64,000 nt of DNA from Nitrospira sp. (GTDB taxonomy: Bacteria; Nitrospirota; Nitrospiria; Nitrospirales; Nitrospiraceae): NCBI GenBank assembly GCA_029194675.1, contig JARFXP010000006.1, positions 1-64,000 on the forward strand, in the 5' to 3' direction. The translations under genes and the position numbers were made by a program. Shown one piece after another: positions 6,585 through 49,319 of the stretch. Within the stretch, counting starts at the first letter, position 1. Each line of letters begins with the position of its first letter. The notes under the pieces were generated by a model that made no database searches, was not told where the DNA came from, and saw only the letters and a program-made list of their open reading frames with translations.

Positions 6585-7466
6585 CTACGGTGAGACAGTG
6601 CCCTTCTTGCGGCGCTCCACCAAGGCCTGTAAACACGCGCGCATGTCGGCCGAAGAGAGGCGCACACGATCGCCGTGTCCGGCCAGTACCCATTCAAACG
6701 GGTAGTCAAGCAGTTTTTCGATGGACTCAACCAAAGCCCATTTTCTCCAGATCAACCGAGTAGGAGCCTCCAGTGATCTTGTGTGGTGGTTCCACCAGAG
6801 ATGATCGCCGGTGAAGAGAAAACGCTCCCGATAGAGCAGCGCCATACTCCCGGCCGTATGGCCCGGCACGGGAATGATTTGAAACTCTGCTCCAACTCGA
6901 ACCGGCTCTTCCCCTCCAATCATCCGTTCTGCAGTCGGAGCAACATCGCTGTCCGCCTGATGGATGATGCGCTTCGCGCCGAAATGCGCCGCATACTTAT
7001 CCGCATCCGCCACGTCATCCCTGTGGGTCAGAAAGATATGGGCGATACCTCCTCGCCGCTCAAAGGCTTCAACGAGATGCTTGAGGTACCGAGGAGAATC
7101 GATCAGCCAGTTGCCGTCCTGATGTTCAATGAAAAAACTATTCGCTCCGAAGGATTTCTCCGAATTGAAGCCGCAATAACTCACCCCGTTCTCGATCTGG
7201 AGGGGAAAGCTCGCCATAGCGGTTTGCAATCGTGCCTTGTCGCTGTGTTCAGTGCCGATCGAACCCACGGGACAAGCAAGCAATGCCTGGTACGCTTGAT
7301 GAATCTGTGGTTCAGTACCCGGCTGACGACTGACCGTTGAATAGTCGCCGACTTCTTCGAAGCTCAGCGGCGCCAACTGGCGACAGGTGTCGCAATTGAT
7401 GCAGGTCGCATCCACGTAAAAATTACCAGGAACGTTAGAATCGAGACGTTTTGTCGAGTCCGCCAT
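6585..7466 (-). CDS. 4Fe-4S ferredoxin / metallo-beta-lactamase fusion protein
   Basis: This 293-residue protein opens with a ferredoxin-like domain: CINCDTCRQLAP near residue 22 and LACPVGSI near 63, giving four Cys for one 4Fe-4S cluster. A metallo-beta-lactamase domain follows from about 85 to 290, with THRDDVADADKY as a variant of the HxHxDH metal motif, PVPGHTAGSMALLY, TGDHLWW and AGHGDRV. The variant motif is found in a plant and cyanobacterial branch of the fold. The reaction is not known. The transporter gene begins two bases after its stop, suggesting that enzyme and transporter handle the same compound. Confidence 0.8.
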   Translation of the reverse strand: MADSTKRLDSNVPGNFYVDATCINCDTCRQLAPLSFEEVGDYSTVSRQPGTEPQIHQAYQALLACPVGSIGTEHSDKARLQTAMASFPLQIENGVSYCGFNSEKSFGANSFFIEHQDGNWLIDSPRYLKHLVEAFERRGGIAHIFLTHRDDVADADKYAAHFGAKRIIHQADSDVAPTAERMIGGEEPVRVGAEFQIIPVPGHTAGSMALLYRERFLFTGDHLWWNHHTRSLEAPTRLIWRKWALVESIEKLLDYPFEWVLAGHGDRVRLSSADMRACLQALVERRKKGTVSP

Positions 7467-7608
7467 GGTCGATTAAAATCGCATGTTAGTCGTTTCGAAT
7501 CATGAATGATATTAAAGAGATATGTCAAACTATCCGTCTTCGTGATTGACGGTATCGAAATCTTTTTGCTAGCGTGCATAACTGTCTAATAACTGGTTGG
7601 GCAGATGA

Positions 7609-7881
7609 ATGAAGTCTGAAATACCCGAGTTTCTCGCGCCTATCGTGGCCATAGCCATGCTGCTCTTGGCCGGAGTTTTCGGTTTCTTCGGGATAGGCCT
7701 GGCTGCCGTCTGTGTAGCCGGCTTGGGCGGCTTCGCTTGGGCGTTGCCGGACGTTACGGGCATGCGTGGGATGGGAGGGCACGCCGGGGGAGCAGAGCAG
7801 TTCGTCACCATGATGCGTTTTGCCGTGTATTGCGTCGTGGCTGCGTTGATCTACGCCGTTGGAAGCTATTTCGGCACCTGA
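7609..7881 (+). CDS. Small membrane protein of unknown function
   Basis: The 90-residue product has two or three hydrophobic segments: PIVAIAMLLLAGVFGFFGIG, then LAAVCVAGLGGFAWAL, and near the end FAVYCVVAALIYAVG. A Gly/Met-rich loop (MRGMGGHAGG) lies between. No family is recognised. There is no strong ribosome site; the start ATG lies seven bases after the cassette core site, which is typical of integron cassettes. It is the first gene of putative cassette 1. Confidence 0.5.
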   Translation: MKSEIPEFLAPIVAIAMLLLAGVFGFFGIGLAAVCVAGLGGFAWALPDVTGMRGMGGHAGGAEQFVTMMRFAVYCVVAALIYAVGSYFGT

Positions 7882-7911
7882 CATCTCGACAGCTCATTCC
7901 GAGGAATTCGA

Positions 7912-8085
7912 ATGAACGCGATACTCAGCCTCATAACGATTGCTACACCTCTGTTGGGCGTAGTCATGTATGGTCAGCCGGGCTTCATAGTTGGTGCGGG
8001 GATCGGGCTCGCGGCTTTCCTCATCAATTGGAAAACGGGGGATTCGATGAGATGCTTCGTCGTCGTCCAGAGACCGACCCCCTGA
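7912..8085 (+). CDS. Small membrane protein (57 residues)
   Basis: ATG at 7912 follows a GAGGAATTC ribosome site. The protein begins MNAILSLITIATPLLGVVMY and continues GFIVGAGIGLAAFLIN, giving two short membrane spans and a basic tail. No family is recognised. Its end overlaps the start of the ankyrin gene at 8052, suggesting translational coupling within putative cassette 1. Confidence 0.45.
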   Translation: MNAILSLITIATPLLGVVMYGQPGFIVGAGIGLAAFLINWKTGDSMRCFVVVQRPTP

Positions 8086-8435
8086 TGGAGAACCGCGAGT
8101 TTGTACATCGAAACCGATTCAGCATCGGCATGCACGCGGCAGCCGCTAGCGGTGACCTGATGACAGTCCAAATGTCTCTTTCTAATGGCGCGAACGTCAA
8201 CTGGAAGGCGCCCTACAACCACACGGCGCTCATGGAGGCTGCGGCATGGGGGTACGTGGAGATCGTTGAGGAACTATTGAAGCACGGTGCACTGGTGAAT
8301 CTAGTCAATGACTTCAGACAGACAGCGCTCGATAATGTCACGGAGAATCGGACCAACATGCCTGAGGATAAGAGGGCTAGAGTCATCACCATGCTGCGGC
8401 AGGCAGGCGGCAAGAGCGCAAAGGAGTTGACTTAA
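8052..8435 (+). CDS. Ankyrin-repeat protein
   Basis: From ATG at 8052 (127 residues) or ATG at 8085 (116 residues). Two to three ankyrin units are visible: GMHAAAASGDLMTVQMSLSN, then HTALMEAAAWGYVEIVEELL, and ALVNLVNDFRQTALDNV. Ankyrin repeats bind other proteins, and no catalytic domain is attached. The N-terminus overlaps the preceding small membrane gene. It is the last gene before the attC-like site at 8506, in the position expected of a cassette gene. The partner and role are unknown. Confidence 0.7.
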   Translation: MLRRRPETDPLMENREFVHRNRFSIGMHAAAASGDLMTVQMSLSNGANVNWKAPYNHTALMEAAAWGYVEIVEELLKHGALVNLVNDFRQTALDNVTENRTNMPEDKRARVITMLRQAGGKSAKELT

Positions 8436-8505
8436 GAATGGCGCTGAACTGGGCAAGACGCAGGTGCATCTGGCGTGAGTCTGATGGTGGCCGCAGTGAC
8501 GTACT

Positions 8506-8565
8506 GCCCAACAGCAGCATGCAGCGGACGGCGCTGCGCGCCGCCGCTGATGCTGAGCGTTAGCA
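8506..8565 (+). other. attC-like integron recombination site A
   Basis: A 60-bp imperfect palindrome bounded by GCCCAAC (a perfect RYYYAAC left core) and GTTAGCA (right core). The arms CAGCATGCAGCGGACGGCG and CGCCGCCGCTGATGCTG pair along 17 bases with two unpaired bases on the left arm, matching the extrahelical bases of attC hairpins. It lies about 70 bases after the ankyrin gene, in cassette orientation. Confidence 0.7.
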
Positions 8566-9196
8566 ACAGGTATCAAAATGCAAGGAGGTCTCGAATATGG
8601 GCTTCATGAGCTGGTCGCCCAGAGGCAAGCTGCAAAAAGATCCCAAGGAAATGATGGTAGCAGCTATCAAATCTTTCAACTCGGCAATGCAGCAAATGCG
8701 CGATTTGCCCAGCGACGACCCATGTCCCCGCATATGGGAAAGCGTAATTGGTGAATTGACAACCATTATTGGAACGAGGGCATATAACGACGGAGCTCTG
8801 CATATGCGTGCCCGAGCCTCTTATTACGCAGGGTGTTACAAAGAAGCCATTGGCGATATCAATGCTTTTTTCTCTGAGGGTCATCAATACGATCCTGTCG
8901 CTCATGGCGACCTATCTCCCCGGACTTTGCGGGCGATGGCACGAATCGGGTTGCAACAGTTTTCTGATGCAGAGAAAGACCTTCATGAGGAGATCCGACT
9001 GATGAAGGGGAACATGGATCAGCGGTCCATCAACCGCTCACGAGAGGGCTACTGGTTGCTCGTTTGCAAACACAAGGGCAACAAAAGTGCTGCCATCGAG
9101 GAACAGTCCAAGTTCTATTGAAGGTGCTAACCCCGCGCTGAAGACGGACCTTCGCAAGCGGGCTTCGCCGCTTGCTTCGGCGGCTCAGCGCGAACG
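8560..9196 (+). mobile_element. Putative integron gene cassette 2
   Basis: It begins TTAGCA directly after site A and ends at the G of site B. The left core of site B is TGCTAAC, the exact reverse complement of GTTAGCA. This second exact start/end match, with a different sequence from cassette 1, is hard to explain by chance. It contains one gene (8597-9121). Confidence 0.65.
8597..9121 (+). CDS. Hypothetical protein, helical TPR-like
   Basis: A 174-residue soluble protein with a strong AAGGAGG ribosome site. The segments HMRARASYYAGCYKEAIGDI and LRAMARIGLQQFSDAEKDLH have the small/large residue spacing of tetratricopeptide helices. No enzyme motif is seen. It is the only gene of putative cassette 2, starting 37 bases after the core site and stopping four bases before the next attC-like site. 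Function unknown. Confidence 0.65.
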   Translation: MGFMSWSPRGKLQKDPKEMMVAAIKSFNSAMQQMRDLPSDDPCPRIWESVIGELTTIIGTRAYNDGALHMRARASYYAGCYKEAIGDINAFFSEGHQYDPVAHGDLSPRTLRAMARIGLQQFSDAEKDLHEEIRLMKGNMDQRSINRSREGYWLLVCKHKGNKSAAIEEQSKFY

Positions 9197-9202
9197 TTCT
9201 AC
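9125..9202 (+). other. attC-like integron recombination site B
   Basis: A 78-bp site from left core TGCTAAC to right core GTTCTAC. Outer arms CGCGCTGA and TCAGCGCG pair perfectly. An inner hairpin GCAAGCGGGCTTC/GCCGCTTGC sits in the loop, as in longer attC sites. The cores deviate from the RYYYAAC/GTTRRRY consensus at two positions, but the left core matches the start of its own cassette exactly. Confidence 0.6.
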
Positions 9203-9630
9203 TGCAGCCGCCGCGAATCGTTGTCTTCGGGAAAACACCGTATCGCGCGCTGCTCACGCTTCCAGGGTTGAGGGTTCCACACGGTCTCGGAGTTTCGGCC
9301 TCCGTCGCTGAACTCGTTGACCAGACAAGGGGTGGCTTGCTGTTTCAGACGGATGGGTGGGAGTTCCAGATCCACGCCAGTCCTTTCCCCCTCCAGCACA
9401 AGAGACCGGTGCCCCTCGCTCAAGAGGTGTTGAGAGAAGCAGCAACGCCGGCGGGAGTACCCGATAGTCCAGACTCACAGTAGGCTTACGTGGGCTGGCT
9501 CACCGCCGCGCAGTAGGATGTGGCGCTTCGCATGTGAGCATGGCATACTGATGTCCTGAACGAGAAGGACTCCGTTCCTGGCGTCAGGCCCGTGGATTGG
9601 TGTCTGGAACATTGGTGGGGAGGGTAACCC
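9203..9630. other. Stretch without a convincing gene
   Basis: An open frame on the plus strand (about 9200-9483, containing GLRVPHGLGVSASVAELVDQ) has no ribosome site and no recognisable family. It may be a remnant of a third cassette, since it follows a right core GTTCTAC. No partner GTAGAAC core was found downstream. The last 30 bases carry the GGGGAGGG ribosome site of the antitoxin gene. Confidence 0.3.
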
Positions 9631-9831
9631 ATGTCGAGGGTAGACGAACTCAAAACAGAAATCGAGAGACTGCCCCACGAGGAGTTTGCCGAACTCGCCC
9701 GGTGGTTGTCAGAAAAAGATTGGGAACGGTGGGACAAGGAGATCGAAGCTGACTCTGCGGCGGGAACGCTGGATTTCCTGGTGCGTGAGGCGCTCGAAGA
9801 GAAAGCCCAAGGGACGCTCAAGGACCTGTGA
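9631..9831 (+). CDS. Antitoxin of a RelE-type toxin-antitoxin pair
   Basis: A 66-residue acidic, helical protein: SRVDELKTEIERLPHEEFAE, then LARWLSEKDWERWDKEIE, then a tail rich in Glu and Ala. This form (EI..LP..E...L..WL...D...WD.E) is common among small antitoxins paired with RelE-like toxins. The toxin gene overlaps its stop by four bases. It would bind and block the toxin and probably repress their shared promoter; no operator was identified. Confidence 0.75.
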   Translation: MSRVDELKTEIERLPHEEFAELARWLSEKDWERWDKEIEADSAAGTLDFLVREALEEKAQGTLKDL

Positions 9832-10091
9832 AACATCGCACAACGGCTCGGTTTTGGGCTTGCTATGCGAACCTCCCAGAAGCTGTCCAGAGAGTGGCCC
9901 GACACAACTTCGACCTCCTGAAAGAAAATCCCGCGCACCCGTCGCTGCACTTCAAAAAAGTCGGCAAGCTGTGGTCAGTGAGGGTTGGGCCTCACCACCG
10001 AGCACTGGCCGTTGAGGATGGGCCAGATTTCGTGTGGGTTTGGGTCGGACCTCATGATGAGTATGAGCGACGCATCAAGCAGCAGGGCTAA
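9828..10091 (+). CDS. RelE/ParE-superfamily toxin
   Basis: The 87-residue product starts at GTG 9828, inside the antitoxin stop. It reads TARFWACYANLPEAVQRVAR, then HPSLHFKKVGKLWSVRVGPH and ALAVEDGPDFVWVWVGPHDE, the pattern of RelE-like toxins that act on translating mRNA. The conserved C-terminal HDEYERRI is present, so it looks intact. Its TAA stop lies inside the weak attC-like site at 10086, the usual place for a cassette gene to end. Confidence 0.85.
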   Translation: MKHRTTARFWACYANLPEAVQRVARHNFDLLKENPAHPSLHFKKVGKLWSVRVGPHHRALAVEDGPDFVWVWVGPHDEYERRIKQQG

Positions 10092-10137
10092 CTCAGCGCT
10101 TCAGCAGCTCTCTTGCAGCGGCGGCTGAGCTTTAGGG
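10086..10137 (+). other. Weak attC-like site C
   Basis: A left core GGCTAAC (one mismatch to RYYYAAC), outer arms CTCAGC/GCTGAG, and a right core TTTAGGG that would need one change to be GTTAGGG. The spacing is about 52 bp. No cassette start with the matching TTAGCC was found, so this is either a decayed site or a terminator-like hairpin. Confidence 0.3.
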
Positions 10138-10183
10138 TGAACTCTTCGATGAGAGACGTGCATTGAACTCCTGCTCCAATACA

Positions 10184-10816
10184 TCACGATCCCGCCTTCG
10201 CTCGGTCCGCTGCACGCCAGAGGTACCAGGAGGCTGTCGTCCGATAGGGCTTCCATCGCTCGCCATATTGTAACAGCTGTTTTGGCGTGGGCATGGTGGG
10301 CCGTCGGTAGGCTATGCGGAAACCATTGCGCAGGCCGAAATCATCGACCGGCAACACATCAGGACGCCCCAACTGAAAAATCAGCAGCATCTCGACCGTC
10401 CATCGCCCGATGCCTCGGACTTCCACCAGCCGCCGGATAATCGCCTCATCAGCCAATTGCCTGATCATACGGCTTGTCGGCACAGTGCCATCGAGGGTCT
10501 TTGCAGCCAGATCGCGAAGCGCCAAAATCTTCGGTCGCGAGAAGCCGGCTTGCCTGACTGATCTCATATGCATGCCGAGCAGCTCATCCGGGCGAGGAAA
10601 TCTCCGCCCTGGAAAGAGCGCAATGAATCGCTTGAGGATGCTCTCCGCAGCTTTGTCATGGAGCTGTTGATAGGCGATCGCGCGGGCAAGCGATTCGAAC
10701 GGCGAACGGCGCGCTTTCGGCTTCAGCGTGAACGGACCAATCGCCTCGATCAACCGACACATGACTGGGTCAACCTGGGAAAGATAGTCGGTCGGTTCAG
10801 AATCGAGGTGACCCAT
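10184..10816 (-). CDS. DNA-3-methyladenine glycosylase, AlkA-type
   Basis: A 210-residue HhH-GPD base-excision repair enzyme. The helix-hairpin-helix and catalytic region reads LVEVRGIGRWTVEMLLIFQL, then GRPDVLPVDDFGLRNG, with the catalytic Asp in the VDDFG motif. The N-terminal part (SPFESLARAIAYQQLHDKAA) fits the substrate-binding helices. It removes alkylated purines from DNA. The length matches the short AlkA branch without the extra N-terminal domain of the E. coli protein. Its ATG abuts the stop of the upstream NmrA gene (shared base at 10816), so the two form an operon. Confidence 0.9.
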   Translation of the reverse strand: MGHLDSEPTDYLSQVDPVMCRLIEAIGPFTLKPKARRSPFESLARAIAYQQLHDKAAESILKRFIALFPGRRFPRPDELLGMHMRSVRQAGFSRPKILALRDLAAKTLDGTVPTSRMIRQLADEAIIRRLVEVRGIGRWTVEMLLIFQLGRPDVLPVDDFGLRNGFRIAYRRPTMPTPKQLLQYGERWKPYRTTASWYLWRAADRAKAGS

Positions 10817-38346: not shown

Positions 38347-39228
38347 CTAGCTCAGCCCAACCTCTTTCAGAAGAGCCTGAGCACTTGCTTTTTCAACATT
38401 GTTAGACGCAAACTGACTATCACCGGTAATGAGCTTCCTATCTTGGTGGGTTTTTCCGGTGATGTCGCTATTGAGGATCTCAACACCGAGTTCCTTCAGC
38501 TTCTCGGCGACAAACCATGGCATCGGACCAGGCATGTATCCGATATCGGGATTTTTCTTGTCGATGGAATCGGGGAAGACACAGATCTTGTAGCCCTTAT
38601 ACATGAAGTCATCCTTGGACTCCCCGAGCGCCGCCGATAGCAACGCCGCCGGCCCATGGCATTGGGAAATAACATATTTGTCCTTCCTCATCGCCCATTC
38701 GAGAACATGCTTGATGTCTTCGCTGTGAGGGATTCCAATTAGGGCACCATGCCCCCCCGGGATGAAGACAGCTATATACTTTGAGTCTTCTCCAAGTTTG
38801 TTCTCGATAACATCCGAAAGCTTGAGCGGGCTTTTAAGTTTTTCCAAGTACTTGTGATATACGCTCTGGACAGCTTCGTCTTCTTTCGGCAACGCCCAAA
38901 GTTCCAGCTTGACGGGGTTGCCCGACAAAGTCGCGATGTCGAATTCGAAGCCGGCCTTGTTCATATGGTACATCGGAAGCAGCATTTCAACCGGGTGGTT
39001 TCCTGTGGAAAACATCGTGCCGTTCTGCATGAGAAGGTATCTCTCATCAGAGGCAATCATCAGTACCTTCCATTTCCCCTCGCGATAGGGGCTTGGGTAG
39101 TCCGCCCCTTCCAGATCGGATTTGGACGAGGTGTACTTTTCTAGGGAGTAGGCCGAAGGAAAGAAGGCGTTATCCTCAGCCGGATCCGGAGTGGGTACTT
39201 TGCCAGCTTCGGCATCCTTATTTGTCAT
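38347..39228 (-). CDS. hchA: DJ-1/PfpI family protein, Hsp31/HchA type (glyoxalase III/deglycase)
   Basis: A 293-residue protein starting at ATG 39228 behind GAGGAGG. It has the HchA features: [20 protein letters not shown], the Glu-bearing [40 protein letters not shown], and the nucleophile Cys in [17 protein letters not shown]. The end, [20 protein letters not shown], also fits. The family acts as a holding chaperone and methylglyoxal-handling enzyme. It appears intact and monocistronic. Confidence 0.9.
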
Positions 39229-39589
39229 GGCTTTCCTCCTCTCGCTTGATTCGTGAATTGAAGATGCATGGTTTCCCTTCATGCGAGTGTGACATCGATT
39301 GAGACCACCACTCGGTAGAATCCTAGTCGCATGTTCAGTGAAGAAATTACACCGTAGCAAAGGCTGTCCGATTGGGGCAAGGGAAAGTTTGTCGGTTTTT
39401 CATAGCTGGTTTTCTTGTGGGCTATGCAGCTTTGCATGGCCTGATTTGTTCTCTCCGGTTGCTCCCCTCTCGTCTATCAGTTCATGACCCTGCATCGGTT
39501 CGCCTTGTTACTTTCAAGCATAAAGCTCCGGCACTTCGTTACGGCCTGACGGTTCTCCACGGTGGGCCTAGACTTGCGCCTTAGTTCGC
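39229..39589. other. Intergenic stretch, no gene supported
   Basis: It contains the hchA ribosome site at its left edge. Short open frames occur on the plus strand but have no ribosome site or recognisable family. The right edge abuts a truncated dps fragment, so part of this DNA may be decayed coding sequence. Confidence 0.35.
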
Positions 39590-48064: not shown

Positions 48065-49210
48065 TTACAAGCCTAAGGCATAGAAAACCACGGCAAAGAG
48101 GCCATCCACAATGGCGATGAGCACGATGCCGCTGACGACTGCGCTGGTAGTCGATTGGCCGACCGCACTGGCGCCTGTTTTGGTCTCCAAACCGCGAAGG
48201 CAGCCGATGGCGGCTACCACAATGCCGTAGACGAATGATTTCAGCAGCCCACCCATGAGGTCCCCCACTGTCACGTCCGACAGGACTTGGTTCACATAGG
48301 TGACCAGCGGATACCCCAGCGACCGCATCACTATCGCTCCTCCCATCAAACCGAACAGGTTGGCGAACACCGTCAAGACCGGGATCATCGCCACCGCCGC
48401 TATGACACGCGGCAGAACGAGGAATCGGACCGGTTCAAGCCCCATCGTACGCAGCGCGTCGATTTCTTCCCTGACCTTCATGGTTCCCAGTTCTGCGGCA
48501 AAAGCCGAACCGGACCGGCCGGCCAGGATAATTGCGGTGATCAAGGGGCCCATCTCGCGGAGCATCGCTAATCCCAGGAGATTGGCGACGAAAATGTCCG
48601 CCCCAAACCGGCGCATCGGAATGGCGGACTGAAACGCCAAGATGAGTCCGAGCAGCACGCCGATCAGTGCAATGATGGGAAGCGCATCAACCCCGGACTG
48701 CTCCGCCGCAAGCCAGGCATCTCGCCATCGTACAAGACGGGGACGGCAGGCAGCACGGAGTAACATCACCGCCAGCTCCCCGACGAAGGTCAGAAGGGAC
48801 TGAAGGTCCCGCCACAATTCAGCCGTGGCTTTTCCAACCTGCTCAATGATCGAAAGCGGCTCACGGCGGCGTCCCGGAGGACGCTCAATTGAGATGCGCC
48901 CATAGATGTCCAGAAGGCGCCGGACTTCTTCCCGCAGCCCTTGAATTGCGGCATCACCGCCGGTGCGGATCTGCAACTGCTGAAGGTCGATCAGGAATGC
49001 AACCCCAGCGCCGTCACAATAGCTCACGCCTGACGCATCGATCACGAGACGACGTGGTTTCCCTTGTGTCAGTAGCTGTCGGCCTTGTTGCCACCACTTC
49101 CCGGTCGTGCCCGAATCCCACCGTCCCGTCATAAAGAGCGTGAGCGTCCCGCCATCGGGTGAGATTCGCACATCCAACGAATTGATAGACGCCTCTGCGA
49201 CTGTAGTCAT
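48065..49210 (-). CDS. mlaE: MlaE-type permease with N-terminal STAS domain
   Basis: A 381-residue protein. Residues 1-110 form a STAS domain (LVIDASGVSYCDGAGVAFLI) and the rest is an MlaE permease: QSAIPMRRFGADIFVANLLG, REMGPLITAIILAGRSGSAF, AAELGTMKVREEIDALRTMG. In Proteobacteria the STAS protein MlaB is a separate subunit; here it is fused in front of the permease. It forms the channel of the lipid transporter. First gene of the operon mlaE-mlaF-mlaD-lipoprotein. Confidence 0.95.
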   Translation of the reverse strand: MTTVAEASINSLDVRISPDGGTLTLFMTGRWDSGTTGKWWQQGRQLLTQGKPRRLVIDASGVSYCDGAGVAFLIDLQQLQIRTGGDAAIQGLREEVRRLLDIYGRISIERPPGRRREPLSIIEQVGKATAELWRDLQSLLTFVGELAVMLLRAACRPRLVRWRDAWLAAEQSGVDALPIIALIGVLLGLILAFQSAIPMRRFGADIFVANLLGLAMLREMGPLITAIILAGRSGSAFAAELGTMKVREEIDALRTMGLEPVRFLVLPRVIAAVAMIPVLTVFANLFGLMGGAIVMRSLGYPLVTYVNQVLSDVTVGDLMGGLLKSFVYGIVVAAIGCLRGLETKTGASAVGQSTTSAVVSGIVLIAIVDGLFAVVFYALGL

Positions 49211-49319
49211 AATTCAATGACCCTATTATGAAGCCTCCTCAACTCCTCCCAGAGAAGTGGTTCGCCGCTTGAGGCGCGTCAGCTCAAGGTCATAGTGATG
49301 CCCGTGATTGAGTACGATC

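Follow-up and report, generated by a model that had tools for sequence, protein, structure and literature searches.

The 64-kb window (the whole stretch of Nitrospira sp. DNA analyzed here, 64,000 nucleotides) contains an integrase-less array of integron gene cassettes, i.e., a CALIN (probability of about 0.92; Table 1). The array most likely goes back to one that an integron integrase installed in an ancestor shared by five species; cassette exchange and loss of the integrase would then have left it stranded. The array is assigned to the CALINs because the genome has no complete intI yet carries attC sites, the insert is missing from most relatives and its boundaries fall on core sites. An earlier note, made from the sequence alone, had placed two cassettes at 7596-9202. 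Both of these cassettes stand, but the real end of the array lies at about 10143 and includes a third cassette.

Table 1. Features of the cassette array and its flanks, in window coordinates.
Feature	Position	Strand	Basis or remark
Left flank: ferredoxin/metallo-beta-lactamase-fold protein	6585-7466	-	Pfam Fer4_13, Lactamase_B
Insert leader	7467-7595	.	Common only to G017 and G015; absent from G001/G010
Left boundary core GTCTAATAACTGGTTGGGC	7584-7602	+	G017 homology ends at 7602; candidate attI-like or secondary attG-type site
Cassette 1 (G/TTGGGC ... GCCCAAC/attC A)	7597-8559	+	Core rule, synteny break
90-aa small hydrophobic protein, no family	7609-7881	+	Cassette 1
57-aa small hydrophobic protein, no family	7912-8085	+	Cassette 1
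127-aa ankyrin-repeat protein	8052-8435	+	Pfam Ank_4, 4.3e-11 on the 119-aa version from 8076
attC site A	8506-8565	+	R1, stem scan, fold
Cassette 2 (G/TTAGCA ... TGCTAAC/attC B)	8560-9196	+	Exact core rule at site A R'
174-aa orphan protein, weak TPR-like signal	8597-9121	+	Pfam TPR_2, E = 0.006, below cut-off
attC site B	9125-9202	+	R1, R2, fold; off-consensus right core GTTCTAC at 9196-9202
Cassette 3, toxin-antitoxin, apparently 5'-truncated	9197-10137	+	9208-10109 recurs at other loci, in other species
66-aa putative antitoxin	9631-9831	+	Upstream of toxin gene, 4-bp overlap
87-aa ParE-like toxin	9828-10091	+	Pfam PF24732, E = 9.5e-7
Terminal attC site C	10086-10143	+	R2; degenerate R' GTGAACT
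Right flank: HhH-GPD DNA glycosylase	10184-10816	-	Pfam 3e-15; adjoins left-flank gene in relatives

The core motifs quoted in the earlier note are all present in the window: GTTGGGC at 7596-7602, GCCCAAC at 8506-8512 (R'' of site A), GTTAGCA at 8559-8565 (R' of site A) and TGCTAAC at 9125-9131. Site A is an imperfect palindrome in which the two unpaired bases described earlier on one arm are a G and an A, both extrahelical and both in the 5' arm. In a mechanical stem scan of both strands it scored 17 and was the sole match in 64 kb, while 640,000 shuffled strand-bases gave six matches with scores of at least 9. The single-stranded site folds with a z-score of about -3.7, and none of 200 shuffles equaled it on either strand. 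The earlier note had proposed a covariance-model search, with the absence of a match as evidence against an attC. For an independent test we used a model (R1) derived from plasmid-borne class 1 resistance cassettes, of which 11 attC sites were aligned and the known R and L pairs imposed on the alignment. Searched against the window, R1 returned a single match with E up to 10, which was site A (41.6 bits, E = 1e-8), and both extrahelical bases fell on bulge columns of the model. Site A departs from the textbook attC in that a CAG/CTG of its central spacer is able to pair, giving a stem longer than usual. Rfam at the gathering threshold gave no matches; a repeat search at default settings found nothing at the arms because they are imperfect, and a strict RYYYAAC...GTTRRRY scan did not pick up site A because its core is GTTAGCA.

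The other two sites are degenerate. Site B was matched by R1 at E = 0.25 in 3 kb and by a genus model (R2) at E = 0.008 in 3 kb and 0.17 in 64 kb, with fold z-scores of -2.6 and -1.7; the earlier assignment of site B as an attC is upheld, but for a degenerate site with weak model scores. R2 was built from 11 sites including site A, such that its score is circular for site A and not for sites B and C; the pairs of its alignment, which is itself fitted to the model, covary well above shuffles and slid controls. Site C, which closes the toxin-antitoxin cassette and is absent from the earlier account, was matched by R2 with 20.8 bits (E = 0.0083 in 64 kb). Alone, it folds no better than shuffles; its orthologue in the relative G015 is a good attC (R1, 33.2 bits, E = 8e-6). 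In the window, site C has a right half similar to the terminal attC of the relatives G017 and G015, and homology between the window and three other genomes (L211, L212 and L214) ends inside the stem of site C. Judged from these similarities, site C may be chimeric, with its left half from the cassette and its right half resident. The toxin-antitoxin cassettes of L211, L212 and L214 end within the attC stem at slightly different points, as if hairpins were break points.

A CALIN is recognized by at least one attC site (by default two) found with a covariance model. Here, site A is accompanied by a marginal second site, given the R2 score of site C and the weak scores of site B, and a strict pipeline could report a single attC at this locus since B and C are weak. 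Taken alone, sites B and C would fit ordinary terminators or palindromes within a plain genomic island. Applied to the whole array, this explanation is very improbable: it is refuted for site A by the R1 match and its two aligned bulges, the hairpins do not overlap any terminator-like site, the boundaries lie on core sites and the toxin-antitoxin block is found at other loci. A further weak attC-like match to R2 is located at 49236-49301 on the minus strand (16.9 bits, E = 0.078).

The cassette boundaries are also consistent with a CALIN, although not all to the same degree. GTTAGCA occurs once on the plus strand of the window, exactly as the right core of site A, and the core match of cassette 2 is the more informative one because of this uniqueness. 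GTTGGGC has 10 copies on the plus strand, including one at 7953 inside cassette 1, with about 0.14 expected per 910 bp; because of this recurrence, the core match of cassette 1 alone is modest. Thus, the exact core matching emphasized in the earlier note holds for cassettes 1 and 2, but as an argument it is weaker than claimed for cassette 1, in which position 7596 is backed instead by the break in synteny with G017 at 7602. Cassettes 1 and 2 have the structure expected of CALIN cassettes, cassette 3 breaks the core rule, and exact core matching fails for many other attC sites of the genome. An attI proposed at 7584-7602 lacked statistical support: its attI-like score ranked 8 of 1716 GTT positions, within the background range. 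A high-scoring attI-like place at 38401 was dismissed, being inside a predicted ORF (38347-39360, minus strand). Another attI-like place is found at 49178 on the minus strand.

Among the cargo, the ankyrin protein named in the earlier note is confirmed by its Ank_4 match, whereas the TPR-like protein shows the signal but below the cut-off. The 127-aa version of the ankyrin protein also matches PHROG 9262, the function of which is unassigned, and PADLOC and PHROGs returned generic ankyrin matches only for the cargo. For the 174-aa protein, neither 98 other genomes nor the genome_contigs collection yielded a relative, and its AlphaFold model is too poor for use (mean pLDDT 45); the 90-aa protein has none in 76 other genomes of the genus. 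Homologues of the ParE-like toxin (86-93%) are found in four genomes, and four species carry the toxin-antitoxin block elsewhere in their genomes, with 83-87% DNA identity over at most 9208-10109. By eye, the putative antitoxin resembles that of the terminal cassettes of G017 and G015. In L211, one of these, the block follows an attC-like site; the right core of that site, ATTAGCC, agrees at most positions with the left core of the cassette, which is GACTAAC there and GGCTAAC in the window. L211 also has GTTCTGC at the place matching GTTCTAC by eye, a position shifted by the automatic alignment. On the basis of these comparisons, the window copy of cassette 3 seems to have lost its 5' end and to have been joined at GTTCTAC to site B.

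Comparison of the same locus among relatives showed that the two flanking genes, of which the left one has a full-length orthologue in most genus members, are only tens of bases apart in most of the 13 relatives compared. An insert separates them only in the window genome, G017 and G015. Homology to these two relatives stops at 7602 and picks up again at 10118 (G017) or 10137 (G015); the leader of about 130 bp before it holds a promoter-like site for the flanking minus-strand gene according to a promoter scan. The cargo differs among the three inserts. That of G017 encodes an IS-like transposase, proteins of 139 aa and 80 aa (the latter addiction-module-like) and, in common with G015, a 126-aa protein and a toxin-antitoxin pair, and all three inserts end with a toxin-antitoxin cassette, a terminal attC and then the same flank. 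In G017 and G015, this terminal cassette extends from GTTAGCC to GGCTAAT/GGCTAAC and encodes the toxin-antitoxin pair. Conserved synteny across relatives without cassette boundaries, named in the earlier note as evidence against cassettes, was not what we observed: the two cassette genes searched are absent from 98 and 76 other genomes, respectively, and the flanks adjoin without them in most relatives. In a tree of the flanks, the window groups with G017, and G015 groups with G001 and G010 if the tree is rooted on more distant species. The distribution is compatible with one gain in a common ancestor followed by one loss in G001/G010; separate gains are also possible.

The absence of an integrase, which the earlier note had claimed for this stretch, extends to the entire 5.2-Mb genome, in which no complete integron integrase and none over the family cut-off was found. 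XerC and XerD were first taken as candidates and then rejected; the two best full-length matches are XerD and XerC themselves. The sole integron-like piece is a C-terminal integrase remnant on contig C4 (340937-341059; 59 bits with TIGR02249 versus 44 with XerD), with no attC in the 18 kb around it. By eye, the sequence after this remnant resembles what follows intI in G067 and G108, and another ORF lies farther on. The array thus has no integron integrase nearby, as expected of a CALIN, and lacks the functional intI adjoining attI that characterizes a complete integron.

The earlier note had suggested looking for more attC sites elsewhere in the genome, which has at least 13 further attC-like sites: R1 detected 8 sites at E < 0.001 and R2 14 at E < 0.01, at about 11 places. 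The further sites occur in arrays of two to four and as several single sites on contigs C1-C4 (e.g., C2:1126529-1129572, C3:587418-588555, C1:651779-653194, C4:127842 and C4:445784). In each of nine genomes from a different family of the order, R1 gave 0-2 matches, versus the 8 here; it also found attC beside the integrase genes of relatives. In the genus, an integrase above the family cut-off was identified in 8 of 77 genomes, of which 6 are full-length without stops, with fragments in others, while attC was found in 39 of 59 genomes. The integrons of the genus have intI oriented as the cassettes, with attC 3' of intI. A named Nitrospira sp. MAG contains an integrase that is 75% identical and, beside it, stretches of 92-94% identical DNA in common with two genus members, which makes Nitrospira the probable genus. 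This MAG has two copies (L124:1848-2010 and 2763-2913) of a stretch that matches, at 92-94%, sequence lying downstream of intI in both G056 and G017.

Off-target insertion, intI loss and rearrangement are the published routes to CALINs (PMC8618304). At about even odds, an ancestral integrase located elsewhere put the cassettes into an attG-type GTT site, so that no integrase was ever present at the locus. Such insertion has been reported experimentally (Loot et al., 2024, as cited in PMC12444791), and it is consistent with the several single sites among the scattered attC, with the complete intI of G017, which sits on another contig, and with the common leader, which has no detectable similarity to the intI or attI regions of relatives. 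However, no single-cassette intermediate was found at the locus, and an inherited array would account just as well for the conservation of its position across species. Possible but less probable is a locus that was once a complete integron, from which the integrase gene was deleted while attI and cassettes were left behind. The left core GTCTAATAACTGGTTGGGC does resemble genus attI cores such as GCCTAATCATTGTTAGGC, and integrase remnants are common in the genus, including that on C4, but the attI-like score of this core is at background level and no integrase remnant was found at the array locus of the window genome. Given the leader without integrase or attI similarity, the scattered attC and the position of the G017 integrase, off-target insertion is slightly favored over local integrase loss.

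The substrate of integron integrases is attC in its folded bottom-strand form. In the proposed history of the CALIN, such an enzyme would have acted on the bottom strand of the attC hairpins to insert cassettes here in the common ancestor of five species; cassettes would later have been exchanged or lost, and the whole insert would have been lost in the ancestor of G001/G010. Loss of the integrase from the window genome would then have stranded the array, although excision would presumably still be possible with an IntI that was newly acquired or provided in trans. Loss of the array would be disfavored by its terminal toxin-antitoxin cassette. Toxin-antitoxin cassettes are reported to stabilize the Vibrio superintegron (reference cited in PMC11023631), and by analogy the terminal pair may stabilize the array likewise. 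It is conceivable, although rather doubtful, that in this genus an integrase acting in trans spreads single cassettes into secondary sites over the chromosome and is later lost, so that orphan attC are left scattered genome-wide. If so, the window array would be a record of such off-target insertion, with its cassette joined at an internal GTTCTRC and its terminal attC that may be chimeric.

These results enlarge the record of cassette arrays in a probable nitrifier genus, previously two reported CALINs: attC occurs in most sampled genomes, a minority have complete integrons and others retain integrase remnants. The array locus also provides a natural series, comprising an empty state and three different cassette sets, that bears on how CALINs form and how cassettes turn over without a local integrase. 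CALINs as a kind are already known in Nitrospira; the present additions are the comparison of one locus among relatives, the third cassette and the genus counts of attC and integrases. With IntegronFinder 2, two CALINs were identified in Candidatus Nitrospira inopinata (PMC9024848), probably of the same genus, which likewise have several attC, one cassette orientation and no integrase nearby. The array described here differs in having one strong and two degenerate sites and in being compared at the same locus with empty or differently filled relatives. The conserved-position CALINs of Xanthomonas (PMC12444791) are also integrase-less arrays at one place in several species, with the integrase elsewhere or lost; they belong to another phylum, and in contrast the cargo at our locus differs between species. 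In the chromosomal integrons of Treponema (PMC3607928), intI is oriented toward attI, and the integrons of the genus studied here likewise have intI along the cassettes, whereas the window array is without intI. Class 1 integron arrays share the attC consensus with the window array, and the class 1 model finds site A, but the genome has no integron integrase over the cut-off that would make this a class 1 integron, and none of the three cassettes carries a resistance gene.
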